DNA of 34,395 nucleotides. It comes from a virus. Every line of letters starts with the position of its first letter. Positions within the stretch are counted from its first letter, which is position 1. Location of the stretch: positions 1 through 34,395 of IMG/VR virus record IMGVR_UViG_3300007725_000011. The stretch is one strand, 5' to 3'. Shown here piece by piece: positions 12,663 through 24,212 of this stretch. The translations under genes were made by a program, and so were the position numbers. The notes beneath the pieces are model-generated. The model was not told the origin of the DNA. It did no database searches and saw only the letters and a program-made list of their open reading frames with translations.

Positions 12663-13220
12663 TTAATGAGCAAATTCCATGTTAGCGGAGTAATGTATCA
12701 ATTCAGACGGCCAATCCAAGAATTCACTCCAACCAGTGTCTGGAATGTTTATCTTAAATATTTTTGCTCTGTTGTTTATTTGATACCAACTTGGATTATA
12801 TGGTTGTGTGATAGGTTTTATTAGTTTACTGCCTTTTTGTGTGTTACATGGGAAACAGGCAGTGGTACAGTTTTCCCAACTTGTGTCGCCGCCCAGACTT
12901 CTGGGATGTACGTGGTCAATTGTTAATTCACTAGATTCAAATCTTTCACCACAGTACTGACACCTGTAGTCATCCCGGACATACATGTTCCTCCGTGAAA
13001 ATTTGGCATTTCTAGGTCGCCGATGATAACGCCGTAACATCACCACACTGGGCATGTTCATTTTGAAATTTACACTGTTTATATAGATATCATCATAATG
13101 CTTTATGATATCCACTTTTTCTTGATAATACGCTTTTATAGCATTCTGCCAACTAATCGTGCTTAATGGCAGTAAACTTAAGGGCTGAGCATCGGCATTC
13201 AATAATAGTACACTTGACAT
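12663..13220 (-). CDS. Free-standing HNH endonuclease
   Basis: A protein of 185 aa. Two Cys pairs (C87/C90 in RCQYCGE and C122/C125 in ACFPCNTQKG) bracket the catalytic motif TIDHVHPRSLGG (Asp102, His103, His105) and the later Asn117 (WENC), the usual beta-beta-alpha metal finger of bacterial-type HNH nucleases. The N-terminus (VLLLNADAQPLSLLPLSTISWQNAIKAYYQEKVDII) matches the segment that precedes this HNH type in bacterial and phage homologues. It interrupts the baseplate genes between the lysozyme-fold gene and gp25. In T4-like phages such genes are usually homing endonucleases or packaging/repair accessories; which applies cannot be told here. A late-promoter-like GATAAATA lies 23 bases before its ATG, with a GAGAAG ribosome site, so it may be expressed separately. 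Confidence 0.88.
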   Translation of the reverse strand: MSSVLLLNADAQPLSLLPLSTISWQNAIKAYYQEKVDIIKHYDDIYINSVNFKMNMPSVVMLRRYHRRPRNAKFSRRNMYVRDDYRCQYCGERFESSELTIDHVHPRSLGGDTSWENCTTACFPCNTQKGSKLIKPITQPYNPSWYQINNRAKIFKINIPDTGWSEFLDWPSELIHYSANMEFAH

Positions 13221-13251: not shown

Positions 13252-13968
13252 TTACGATGTACTTAATAATTTTACTATTTGTCTCATTCTACTTTGTGTC
13301 ATCTTAGGCAAAAATCTCTTAGTTTCAGAATAATATACATATTCTGCCTGTTGACGTTGAACAGGAGATAGTAACTCAGGATGACGTTTGCGAATCTCTT
13401 GCAATGATTGCTCACGGATATCCTCTCTTGATTTTGGCTGACCATAATCAGCTAACATTAAAATATTAGCTTCTTGGCGTCTAATAGACCGTTGGTAATT
13501 TGATTTTATCAAAGCCGTAGCAATGTAATCCCATTTACCTTGTTTTATATAATCTCCGATGTAGAATCGGTAGGTGCCCGTCCCCACATACTTGAAATCT
13601 CCTGTGAAGAAGTACAAACTGACCAAAGCATCATATTGTGTCTGACTTAACGCATTAACGCTTATAAGTCGTTTTAATTTACGCTCTGTTTCTTTCCAAC
13701 GACCTATGAATTCACTGTAGCTCGCTGATTCCGTTAACCCATTTGAATCAATTTGTGTTTCTGAACCATAACCTATTATAGTTTTTCCATCTTGAATCAC
13801 TTGGTAAGGATTCCATCCCATATATGCCAACGCAACTGAAATAACTTCTTTGCTAGATTCTAGTTCGGATAATTGGACCAAATCATATACCAACGAGCTA
13901 TTTTTAGGAACAAAAATATCCCATTCAATCAAATTATCTTCTGTTATCTCAGGCACTTGATTGAACAT
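13252..13968 (-). CDS. Lysozyme-fold baseplate-associated protein, probably catalytically degenerate
   Basis: A protein of 238 aa. Residues about 40-150 follow the T4-lysozyme-like (GH24) pattern: KTIIGYGS, then a helical region, then VNALSQTQYDALVSLYFFTG, the usual 'L-x-Q-x-x-F/Y-D-A-L-V-S' helix. The C-terminal half (RQEANILML to the end) is basic and unrecognised. The start overlaps the gp5 stop as TAATG, so the two are probably translationally coupled. In T4 this lysozyme domain is inserted in gp5 itself; here it is a separate protein. The active site looks lost: where T4 lysozyme has Glu11-Gly, this has Met50-Gly51; Asp60 may match Asp20; Thr26 is replaced by Ile; and His31 of GIGH is Ser69 (GYGS). 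It may therefore be structural, or may cut by another residue. The fold call is moderate and the loss of activity is inferred. Confidence 0.7.
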   Translation of the reverse strand: MFNQVPEITEDNLIEWDIFVPKNSSLVYDLVQLSELESSKEVISVALAYMGWNPYQVIQDGKTIIGYGSETQIDSNGLTESASYSEFIGRWKETERKLKRLISVNALSQTQYDALVSLYFFTGDFKYVGTGTYRFYIGDYIKQGKWDYIATALIKSNYQRSIRRQEANILMLADYGQPKSREDIREQSLQEIRKRHPELLSPVQRQQAEYVYYSETKRFLPKMTQSRMRQIVKLLSTS

Positions 13969-22225: not shown

Positions 22226-22427
22226 TAAAAAAGATAATGATATGACTGACTGGGAAATGAATGATTTACTCATTTACCAGTTGGCCAAACATATAGAAGA
22301 GAGTCCACATCCATATCAAGTAAAGGACCCACAGACAGATTTATTTGAATACGATGAAAAGATTTCGGTCGAAACCAGCAAATTAGGTATTGACATACTA
22401 CAAAAAATAAACGATAATGGCAAGTAA
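22218..22427 (+). CDS. Small unknown protein between gp46 and the nuclease gene
   Basis: An ORF of 69 aa from ATG 22218 (a TTG at 22215 directly before it is also possible). It starts inside the last codons of gp46 and ends inside the first codons of the next gene (overlaps of 8 and 11 bases), the tight packing typical of real phage genes. The protein is acidic, with no Cys pairs or membrane segment (DWEMNDLLIYQLAKHIEESPHPYQ). I do not recognise it. It sits between recombination genes and could be an accessory to them, but that is only context. Confidence 0.7.
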   Translation: MPDKKDNDMTDWEMNDLLIYQLAKHIEESPHPYQVKDPQTDLFEYDEKISVETSKLGIDILQKINDNGK

Positions 22428-22950
22428 GAGTAAAAACAAAGGAAAAGGATTTGAAAGAGAAGTCTGTAAAATTCTAGGTGAAATTTACAATGACAACTTT
22501 GAACGGGTTCCACACTCTGGCGCATTTGTAGGAGGTATTAATGCTTCCCGCAAAGCTACTCTTACTGAAAACCAAATTAAAGCATTCAAGGGCGATATCA
22601 TCCCTCCTGACGATTGGAAGTATTTCAATTGTGAGTGTAAAAATTATGCGGATTTTCCATTCCATCATCTGTTACAGGATAAGGCAATTCCTGTATTAGA
22701 AATGTGGTTGGAACAAACACTTGATGCGCATGACGAAAATGATATAGACTTATTATTCATGAAATTTGATCGCAAGGGTATTTACCTTGCTTTCCCAACT
22801 AATATCAACCAACATCTACTAACATCTAGACATATTATCTACGAATCAAAAAAGTATGGCGCATGGACTATAACGTTCTGGTCAGATTTTAAACAAATAT
22901 CAACCAATATAGAAAATTTAAAAAACTTAGCAATAAACGGCACAAACTAA
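22417..22950 (+). CDS. PD-(D/E)XK-type nuclease, Holliday-junction-resolvase-like
   Basis: A protein of 177 aa. The N-terminus KNKGKGFEREVCKILGEIYND has the helix with an early acidic residue typical of archaeal Hjc-type and other PD-(D/E)XK nucleases. It is followed by VPHSGAFVGG, then KGDIIPP (catalytic-type Asp, about residue 67) and FNCECKNY (Glu-x-Lys, about residue 76). This spacing of E, D and ExK is the PD-(D/E)XK active site. The remainder forms a mixed alpha/beta body (IDLLFMKFDRKGIYLAFP). Likely role: cutting of branched or otherwise structured DNA during recombination, given its position after gp47/gp46. The exact substrate cannot be read from the sequence. The start ATG overlaps the preceding gene by 11 bases. 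Confidence 0.72.
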   Translation: MASKSKNKGKGFEREVCKILGEIYNDNFERVPHSGAFVGGINASRKATLTENQIKAFKGDIIPPDDWKYFNCECKNYADFPFHHLLQDKAIPVLEMWLEQTLDAHDENDIDLLFMKFDRKGIYLAFPTNINQHLLTSRHIIYESKKYGAWTITFWSDFKQISTNIENLKNLAINGTN

Positions 22951-22954
22951 AAAA

Positions 22955-22984
22955 CTAATATCTACTAATATCTACTAATATCTA
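22955..22984 (+). repeat. Three perfect tandem copies of a 10-base unit
   Basis: CTAATATCTA is repeated three times without interruption at 22955, 22965 and 22975, starting four bases after the stop of the nuclease gene. The unit length is one helical turn, so the copies would lie on the same face of the DNA. A related sequence is present in the 3' part of the nuclease gene at 22812-22830. Confidence 0.9.
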
Positions 22985-23700
22985 GAATTTTTAAGACAGA
23001 AGCTCCGCAAAATTACTGTTGTGAAACAGTATGGCTCGGCTATCTAGCACCTTGTTATGCGAGACTTGAACACCTCGGCAAGGTTAAAGACTACTCACAG
23101 AACCCTTACAAACTAGACTCAAGGTTGACGGGCCAGTTATATATTCCGTTGCGAAATCCATTCTGATGTGAGATGGTAAGCTAACAGGTTTTCTAGTTAT
23201 CTGCTTCAATAGACTACCCTATCTTCGTGATAGGATGCCTTAAAAGACGACCCTACTGGTTAGCGCTTTTCTATTGTCGTAATGGTAGTAGTTACAGTAA
23301 TGTAATGAAAAAAGACCCGGCTCTGATGAACTATTGCAACCGGGAGTCCGTTCAATGTGGTACGATTCGCTATGAACACATGGACTGCGCTGGTAAAAGC
23401 AGCAAGTAATTGAGGTACAGCCCAACCGCCTCCCCTTCCGTAACTGTTAGGTTTGCTAATCGTATGTATTTTCTCCTTTGGGAGAGGTAGAGTTCTATTC
23501 TACCTTAGATACATTTTGGCCGCCATAGGCTAAGTGTATCTAAGGTAGAATAGAGACACACACATGTAGGAGTGACAAAAATATGTTACGGAATATATAA
23601 GAATCAGTGGAAAGGAATAAAAAGAGTGTTTAAGCGTAAGCGTATTAACAACGAAGCAATGCCATTGCGAGTTGTTTTGTCCGATAGGACAATTTACTGC
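22985..23700 (+). ncRNA. Putative large structured non-coding RNA
   Basis: From the end of the nuclease gene to 23765 there is no credible gene, which is exceptional in this tightly packed genome. The stretch instead holds many local inverted repeats. Examples on the plus strand: 23014-23031, a 7-bp stem with a GTGA (GNRA) tetraloop; 23049-23084, ACCTTG/CAAGGT enclosing CGAG/CTCG; 23218-23234, CCTATC/GATAGG; 23316-23344, CCCGG/CCGGG; 23389-23403, GCTG/CAGC; 23472-23485, TCTCC/GGAGA; 23494-23554, a 20-bp stem; 23647-23676, AACAAC/GTTGTT with a nested GCAA/TTGC stem; 23677-23692, TTGTCC/GGACAA with a GATA loop. The GNRA loop and nested stems favour the plus strand as the RNA. The ends are guesses. 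Length (570-720 nt) and phage setting recall the large ornate phage RNAs GOLLD and ROOL, but I did not recognise a consensus. Confidence 0.55.
23494..23554. repeat. 20-bp perfect inverted repeat with a structured loop
   Basis: The arms 23494-23513 and 23535-23554 are perfectly complementary over 20 bases (core CTATTCTACCTTAGATACA and its complement). The 21-base loop contains a second pairing, TTGGCC with GGCTAA, around GCCATA. There is no T-run after the second arm, so it does not look like an intrinsic terminator. It may be the longest stem of the putative RNA, an RNase III site, or a cruciform-forming site. Confidence 0.85.
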
Positions 23701-23765
23701 GACTAAATAGTGATACATTAATCTTTAAGCATCCGTGTGTCTAAAATATCCCTAGGAACTAATGA

Positions 23766-24212
23766 ATGAATTTTGAAGAATTTACTACTGCTTTTCTTAA
23801 GTGGTCTGAAGAAAAAATTGAAGCGAAAAAAGCAGATGGCTTTGCTGTATGTCCTTATGCGAGAAAAGCACGACTTGATAATAAACTCCAGTTCTTAGAT
23901 GCTCGTTCTGGTGACATGAGAGATATATTTCTCCAGTTTCAAAAAGATACGTATGAAGTAGGAATTGCGTGGATAGATGGGCGTAATTTGGATTTAGTAC
24001 ATGATGTGATTGAAGAGTTACATGAGGAGCATCCCGACTTGTTATACTTCATTAGTACGCCAGAATCAGGATTATTTGCTCAAAACTTCACTGGCTGTGT
24101 TTTTATACAGTTGCGTGATGATATTGTAGAAAAAAGAGGCCAACTACATAAGACAAGATATTATGATAGCTGGCCCGAGAAGTATTATAAAATGATTACA
24201 GGTAACGTTTAA
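23766..24212 (+). CDS. Conserved-looking protein of unknown function (148 aa)
   Basis: Begins MNFEEFTTAFLKWSEEKIEAKKADGFAVCPYARKARLDNKLQF. The 'CPYARKA' element near residue 30 resembles the CPFA/CPYA motif of small uncharacterised proteins such as the DUF1415 type, but I am not sure of membership. The rest is an alpha/beta protein without membrane segments (EVGIAWIDGRNLDLVHDVIEELHEEHPDLLYFIST). The ATG at 23766 is used because the overlapping ATG at 23762 runs into a stop after four codons; AGGA lies about 9 bases upstream. It is isolated on the plus strand after the putative RNA, and its stop codon overlaps the stop of the gp51-like frame on the other strand within the tetranucleotide TTAA. 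Confidence 0.8.
   Translation: MNFEEFTTAFLKWSEEKIEAKKADGFAVCPYARKARLDNKLQFLDARSGDMRDIFLQFQKDTYEVGIAWIDGRNLDLVHDVIEELHEEHPDLLYFISTPESGLFAQNFTGCVFIQLRDDIVEKRGQLHKTRYYDSWPEKYYKMITGNV

Follow-up and report, generated by a model that had tools for sequence, protein, structure and literature searches.

A candidate family of large structured noncoding RNAs in a gene-free interval of T4-like and jumbo phages

The locus and its gene context

The window (the whole stretch of 34,395 nucleotides analysed here, IMG/VR record IMGVR_UViG_3300007725_000011) is a 34-kb piece of the genome of a marine T4-like phage and encodes SbcD/gp47, SbcC/gp46, gp25, gp53 and a portal protein. An HNH endonuclease ORF with a weak Endonuclease VII match (12663-13220, - strand) lies between gp25 and a lysozyme gene. 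In the ORF list an 815-bp gap (22951-23765) separates an ORF ending at 22950 from the next, which starts at 23766. The gap contains ORFs of 41-62 aa only and no credible gene, which bears out the gene-free stretch of about 800 bases reported in the preliminary description. Terminator and sigma-70 scans of the gap gave no informative signal; from a TTGACA-17-GATAAT site at 22390-22418, transcripts would begin beyond the nuclease ATG.

Nearly every IMG/VR contig with enough flanking sequence has the gene order gp47, gp46, one nuclease, sometimes another ORF, the RNA, and a baseplate-hub gene on the opposite strand. The nuclease beside the RNA in these contigs is either a SegE-like GIY-YIG or a PDDEXK_15 protein, never both. 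The slot after gp46 (22417-22950 in the window) appears to be a fixed site at which one nuclease fold has been replaced by another. Many phage records label proteins of PHROG 447 / Pfam PF19835 'NAD synthetase' (KM359505.1, 152334-152768, is one example), which looks wrong because these proteins match the Pfam SegE GIY-YIG endonuclease domain. At least four gene contexts occur: after gp46 and the nuclease; before the nuclease, with gp46 on the opposite strand (L032-L041); in Acidovorax phage ACP17, within the 660 bp that separate the gene for the terminase large subunit from its neighbour (annotated 'terminase DNA packaging'), on the strand opposite to both; and in Agrobacterium phage Atu_ph07, downstream of an IF3 gene. 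The nuclease is not adjacent to the RNA in ACP17, Atu_ph07 or Variovorax phage V45v66. Of 54 loci scanned with ARAGORN, 53 have no tRNA, nor does the window; the exception is L055, with one tRNA at a distance of 13 kb from the RNA. On that 166-kb phage contig a tRNA with a CTA anticodon (named Pyl by ARAGORN) lies beside an Rfam freshwater-2 RNA (13432-13505 and 13570-13650).

Direct repeats of CTAAYA with a 10-11 bp period occur directly upstream of the RNA in about 20 loci (including L005, L007, L012, L032, L035 and L038) and are rare elsewhere in the same loci. Their period equals one helical turn, suggesting a DNA-binding regulator at the RNA start; they are perhaps phased sites for a phage transcription regulator. 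On the 3' side, L005, L007, L020 and relatives carry a T4-late-promoter-like [CGT]ATAAATA between the 3' hairpin and the 148-aa gene, a place at which the window has no such motif. Short hairpins with tandem G-A pairs and a GNRA loop (e.g. TTGATGAGCGCAAGCGAATCAA) occur in an AT-rich stretch 3' of the RNA in L061, L045, L115 and others.

The extent first proposed for the RNA, 22985-23700, is refined by the homologues to about 23107-23561. The 7-bp stem with a GUGA loop noted earlier is present, in a segment (22985-23106) found only in the window phage and in a 99.97% identical contig (L003); positions 23566-23765 are not conserved among homologues. The size of the RNA is about 350-580 nt. Features of the locus are collected in Table 1.

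Table 1. Features of the interval and its flanks, in window coordinates
Feature	Position	Strand	Evidence or remark
PDDEXK_15 / RusA-like nuclease gene	22417-22950	+	Pfam PF24608, E 2.5e-25; PHROG 244; context, outside the RNA
Tandem direct repeats ACTAATATCT (CTAAYA, 10-bp period)	22954-22984	+	putative promoter or regulator element, 5' side of RNA
Private 5' extension with 7-bp GUGA hairpin (23014-23031)	22985-23106	+	non-conserved
Conserved 5' domain	23107-23276	+	92.7% paired; 31.6-53.4% when slid
5'-domain pseudoknot, 23112-23117 with 23192-23197 (Pb hairpin loop)	23112-23197	+	89.6% paired; 3 of 6 pairs covary
5'-domain helix Pc	23127-23131/23146-23150	+	
5'-domain helix Pd	23158-23161/23173-23176	+	
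5'-domain helix Pb	23185-23189/23199-23203	+	
5'-domain helix Pe	23207-23213/23270-23276	+	
5'-domain helix Pf	23218-23223/23229-23234	+	
Core matched by covariance models R1 and R2	23313-23469	+	R1 109 bits (window is a training sequence); covariation
Core helix H0	23316-23320/23340-23344	+	
Core helix H1	23346-23349/23382-23385 and 23355-23359/23377-23381	+	
Core pseudoknot, 23361-23367 with 23458-23464	23361-23464	+	covariation, 25 sequences
Core helix H3	23385-23388/23399-23402	+	
Core helix H4	23411-23415/23429-23433	+	
Conserved hairpin H4, loop UACAGCCCAACCG (consensus UAYMGCNYAACCG)	23412-23432	+	
Core helix H5	23432-23437/23448-23453	+	
3' hairpin, 23 bp, near-perfect	23493-23554	+	homologous hairpin closes RNA in relatives (..GGCUAAGUGYGACY or variants)
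Downstream ORF, 148 aa	23766-24212	+	context; in relatives other genes or convergent genes instead

Homologous RNAs in other phages

A protein search with the nuclease recruited 38 viral loci; most of the closer ones have a gap of ~400-900 bp at the equivalent place, and many contain conserved DNA inside it. A 21-nt pattern drawn from the most conserved hairpin matched at least 119 stretches, which share the hairpin RRGG-UAYMGCNYAACCG-CCYY and divide into two classes, class 1 with a TGCGTTG..GCAG hairpin and class 2 with CCGTTGTGAGTCAAGG. Covariance model R1, built from 25 class-1 cores, matches class-2 loci mostly end to end (E 1e-5 to 1e-9), as well as two loci without the exact pattern (L030, L037). 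With model R2, for which 36 sequences were used, 117 of the 119 listed pattern loci match, nearly all at full length, a figure to be read knowing that some of these loci trained R2 and that the pattern itself fixed 21 nt. The two exceptions, L111 and L131, have no full-length match to R1 or R2 and are regarded as chance pattern matches. Altogether a homologous RNA is found in at least about 120 IMG/VR phage contigs.

Homologues also occur, beside other genes, in three cultured phages: V45v66 (matched by R1, E 5e-4), Atu_ph07 (matched by R2, E 1e-5) and ACP17, whose membership follows from blastn to V45v66 (69% over 209 nt, E 4e-9) and from its anatomy, R2 giving only 7.8 bits. L032-L041 form a further, more divergent class, matched by R2 with an E-value of only 0.01. 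Searching the window region against cultured phages with blastn returned no match. Neither R1 nor R2 matched T4, P-SSM2, S-PM2, HTVC008M, Melnitz, KVP40, RaK2, PA5oct or others; ACP17 was likewise missed by R2, so these non-matches fall short of proving absence. The pattern also occurs in seven bacterial contigs (six Pseudomonas, one Clostridia MAG), which we take as chance because only a 19-21 nt motif matched R2 in the four that were scored. Upstream of the nuclease in the jumbo phages PA5oct (L167, 982-2494) and Phosso (L172, 1487-2500) lie gaps of 1-1.5 kb holding tiny ORFs at most; R2 gave no convincing match in the gaps beside these nucleases, even with filters off, and they may hold something other than this RNA.

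Coding potential and conserved structure

Across the 290-nt core, every one of the three forward frames is broken by at least two stops in all 36 non-redundant homologues, and its longest uninterrupted runs resemble those of shuffles, on which grounds coding potential was rejected; the conserved protein frame that the preliminary description had named as counter-evidence was sought in these homologues and is absent. Folding of 22985-23565 gives z = -2.5, with 0 of 100 shuffles as good. This value is due to the 3' hairpin: with it left out (22985-23486), z is +0.9 and 80 of 100 shuffles fold as well. Single-sequence folding energy was thus rejected as proof of structure, and stems counted by eye prove little alone. 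Of the nine or more stems so counted earlier, the GUGA hairpin is confirmed, and a 23-bp 3' hairpin is present as well; several of the stems that the eye picks out differ from the conserved helices, and the raw count alone is not above chance. The significance of the structure comes instead from covariation in homologues, as follows.

Covariation in the core was assessed on a MAFFT alignment (A4) of 25 diverse homologues, made blind to structure. Standard pairs fill 86.4% of 870 cells, a share that falls to 37.8-46.4% once the partner is slid by 1-3 columns, and changes on both sides of the pair appear in 24 of 36 pairs (170 such cells, against 21-62 in the slid controls); the structure was drawn from one member of the alignment (L100), which inflates the paired percentage more than the count of compensatory changes. 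Helix H1, which MAFFT aligns poorly, is only 61% paired on A4, and edges of neighbouring core helices compete. G-U is frequent among the conserved pairs, one H4 pair being A-U in 13 and G-U in 10. The loop of H4 may resemble the 16S decoding region.

The hallmark of the fold is a hairpin loop that pairs with a strand about 90 nt downstream, forming a pseudoknot of 7-14 bp whose strands enclose hairpins H3, H4 and H5. In the 25 sequences 93.9% of the cells of this helix are paired, with both-side changes in 7 of 8 pairs; across homologues its sequence changes completely while position and length persist. In the more distant Atu_ph07, V45v66, ACP17 and L038 the pseudoknot helix has 7-9 bp of unrelated sequence, and in L032 it has 10, including two G-U; relative to the H4 motif, the strands lie at -51 to -78 and +34 to +48. 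A 7-11 bp H1 stem stands beside the pseudoknot in four of these five; in ACP17, H1 was identified by eye as GGCCCAGCUGA..UCAGCGGGCC. Scored one sequence at a time against shuffles, the pseudoknot helix is mostly non-significant; its support comes from constant position and covariation.

The conserved 5' domain, with 37 pairs in seven helices, was compared among the eight window-type members, where its pairing exceeds that of slid controls (Table 1) and 17 of the 37 pairs show both-side changes, against 2-5 when slid; as in the core, the structure was taken from aligned members. By eye, its hairpin AAUCCGU..ACGGUAA is seen again in V45v66 and ACP17. In the short form of the RNA, the first helix takes in the final codons of the GIY-YIG nuclease ORF, and its pairs covary (CCCCC/GGGGG, CCCUC/GAGGG, UCCUC/GAGGA), as read by eye without controls. 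The check proposed at the outset, collecting homologues and looking for covarying pairs, has thus yielded two RNA regions with many compensatory changes and few in slid controls, supporting the large, undescribed structured RNA first suspected here.

Interpretation and alternative explanations

These comparisons show a conserved RNA fold under selection on the + strand, without a conserved protein frame and in several gene contexts. The same shape is kept with different letters in more than 100 phage genomes, which argues that evolution protects the folded RNA itself. We think it probable that the interval encodes a member of an undescribed family of large noncoding RNAs, present in many T4-like and jumbo phages and acting in trans as folded RNA. 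Transcription of such an RNA would begin at a start of its own, marked by the CTAAYA repeats, or else cleavage of the nuclease mRNA would release it. The independent transcript would then work in trans as a compact fold in which the loop-to-downstream pseudoknot encloses the conserved hairpin, a second pseudoknot sits in the 5' domain of window-type members and the 3' hairpin closes the molecule. Its likeliest mode of action would be to present the conserved H4 loop to a phage or host partner during infection; candidate partners are a protein, the ribosome or a nucleic acid.

The principal alternative is an element acting in cis that controls the stability, translation or termination of its neighbour; it would serve either as 3' UTR to the nuclease mRNA or as leader for the gene downstream. 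The RNA does share its strand with gp46 and the nuclease in most loci, its place after them is constant in most viral contigs, where a cis role is accordingly conceivable, and the covarying first helix of the short form draws on codons of the GIY-YIG gene. The neighbours on either side, however, change or are convergent, which argues against such a role, as do the antisense position in ACP17, the reversed order in L032-L041, the IF3 neighbour in Atu_ph07 and a size far beyond that of usual leaders; we judge a cis element unlikely. Still less probable is a DNA-level element (a replication origin, or a site for recombination or packaging) with inverted repeats that function as DNA: recombination genes adjoin and the upstream repeats are phased at 10-11 bp, but the conserved G-U pairs fit stems of RNA better than stems of DNA, and conserved loops and pseudoknots are kept on one strand, so that we give this reading hardly any weight.

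Size, pseudoknots, conserved loops and joining strands are all reminiscent of catalytic RNAs, and a homing-type GIY-YIG gene often adjoins, so an RNA that cleaves or splices itself, or one that has diverged from a known catalytic RNA, was considered. By Rfam, in the window and 17 homologous loci, it is neither an intron of group I or II nor an RNase P RNA, and self-cleaving families are unmatched too; it lies between genes rather than inside one, and on inspection the helix order is unlike the group I P3-P7 core; a ribozyme therefore seems very unlikely. A partner or guide RNA of the adjacent nuclease, in an OMEGA-like system, is more doubtful again. In nearly all viral contigs, inverted order included, one nuclease of either of two unrelated folds is found close to the RNA, but it is non-adjacent in the three cultured phages, SegE-like genes occur in hundreds of phages with no detectable RNA in those tested, and no RNA-guided nuclease of the PDDEXK_15 or SegE-like GIY-YIG kind is known. 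An OMEGA or HEARO guide RNA proper was rejected, the neighbour not being IscB/TnpB and Rfam HEARO giving no match in the window or the 17 loci.

Returning to a trans-acting RNA family, its presence in more than 100 phage contigs and three cultured phages makes transcript, structure, partners and deletion phenotype directly testable. Few large natural RNAs fold intricately, and several of them proved to be central machines or unprecedented structures. A bolder proposal, which we consider rather improbable, is that this RNA is the founding member of an ancient phage RNA machine (catalytic, nuclease-partner or cage-forming), kept by T4-like and jumbo phages whose hosts are marine and soil bacteria; an infection step now credited to proteins would then be done by RNA. 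More generally, covariation on viral contigs reveals RNA families in what Rfam-based annotation shows as empty space between genes.

Comparison with known RNA families

No Rfam 15 family overlaps the RNA at gathering score in the window or the 17 homologous loci, in keeping with the earlier remark that no consensus identified it; relaxed E-values brought chance matches only, in most of which the long 3' hairpin hit miRNA models. No description of the family was found in the open-access literature. By these comparisons it is a new RNA family, of detectable relation to none in the catalogue, and loosely of the kind of large structured phage RNAs.

Melnitz is a marine T4-like phage with a two-piece tmRNA (PMC9004378), likewise a structured RNA gene in such a phage. 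The window RNA differs in matching no tmRNA by ARAGORN or Rfam, on which grounds a tmRNA was rejected, and R1 and R2 find nothing in the Melnitz genome. Vibriophage ICP1 produces an abundant 800-nt RNA from a long gene-free interval away from tRNAs (PMC7567579), which resembles the window RNA by description. GOLLD (RF01998) is a large, pseudoknotted, phage-encoded noncoding RNA of unknown function, and ROOL, another large RNA of phages, has several pseudoknots, with no protein partner known (PMC12286853). GOLLD is often >800 nt and near tRNAs, whereas the window RNA is shorter, lacks a nearby tRNA in 53 of 54 loci and leaves the Rfam GOLLD model unmatched in the window and 17 loci; from ROOL, also without an Rfam match, it differs in lacking a tRNA island and in its helices and conserved loops. 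Of the likeness to GOLLD and ROOL drawn in the preliminary description, a relationship is unsupported by Rfam, and what holds is the general character of a large phage RNA.
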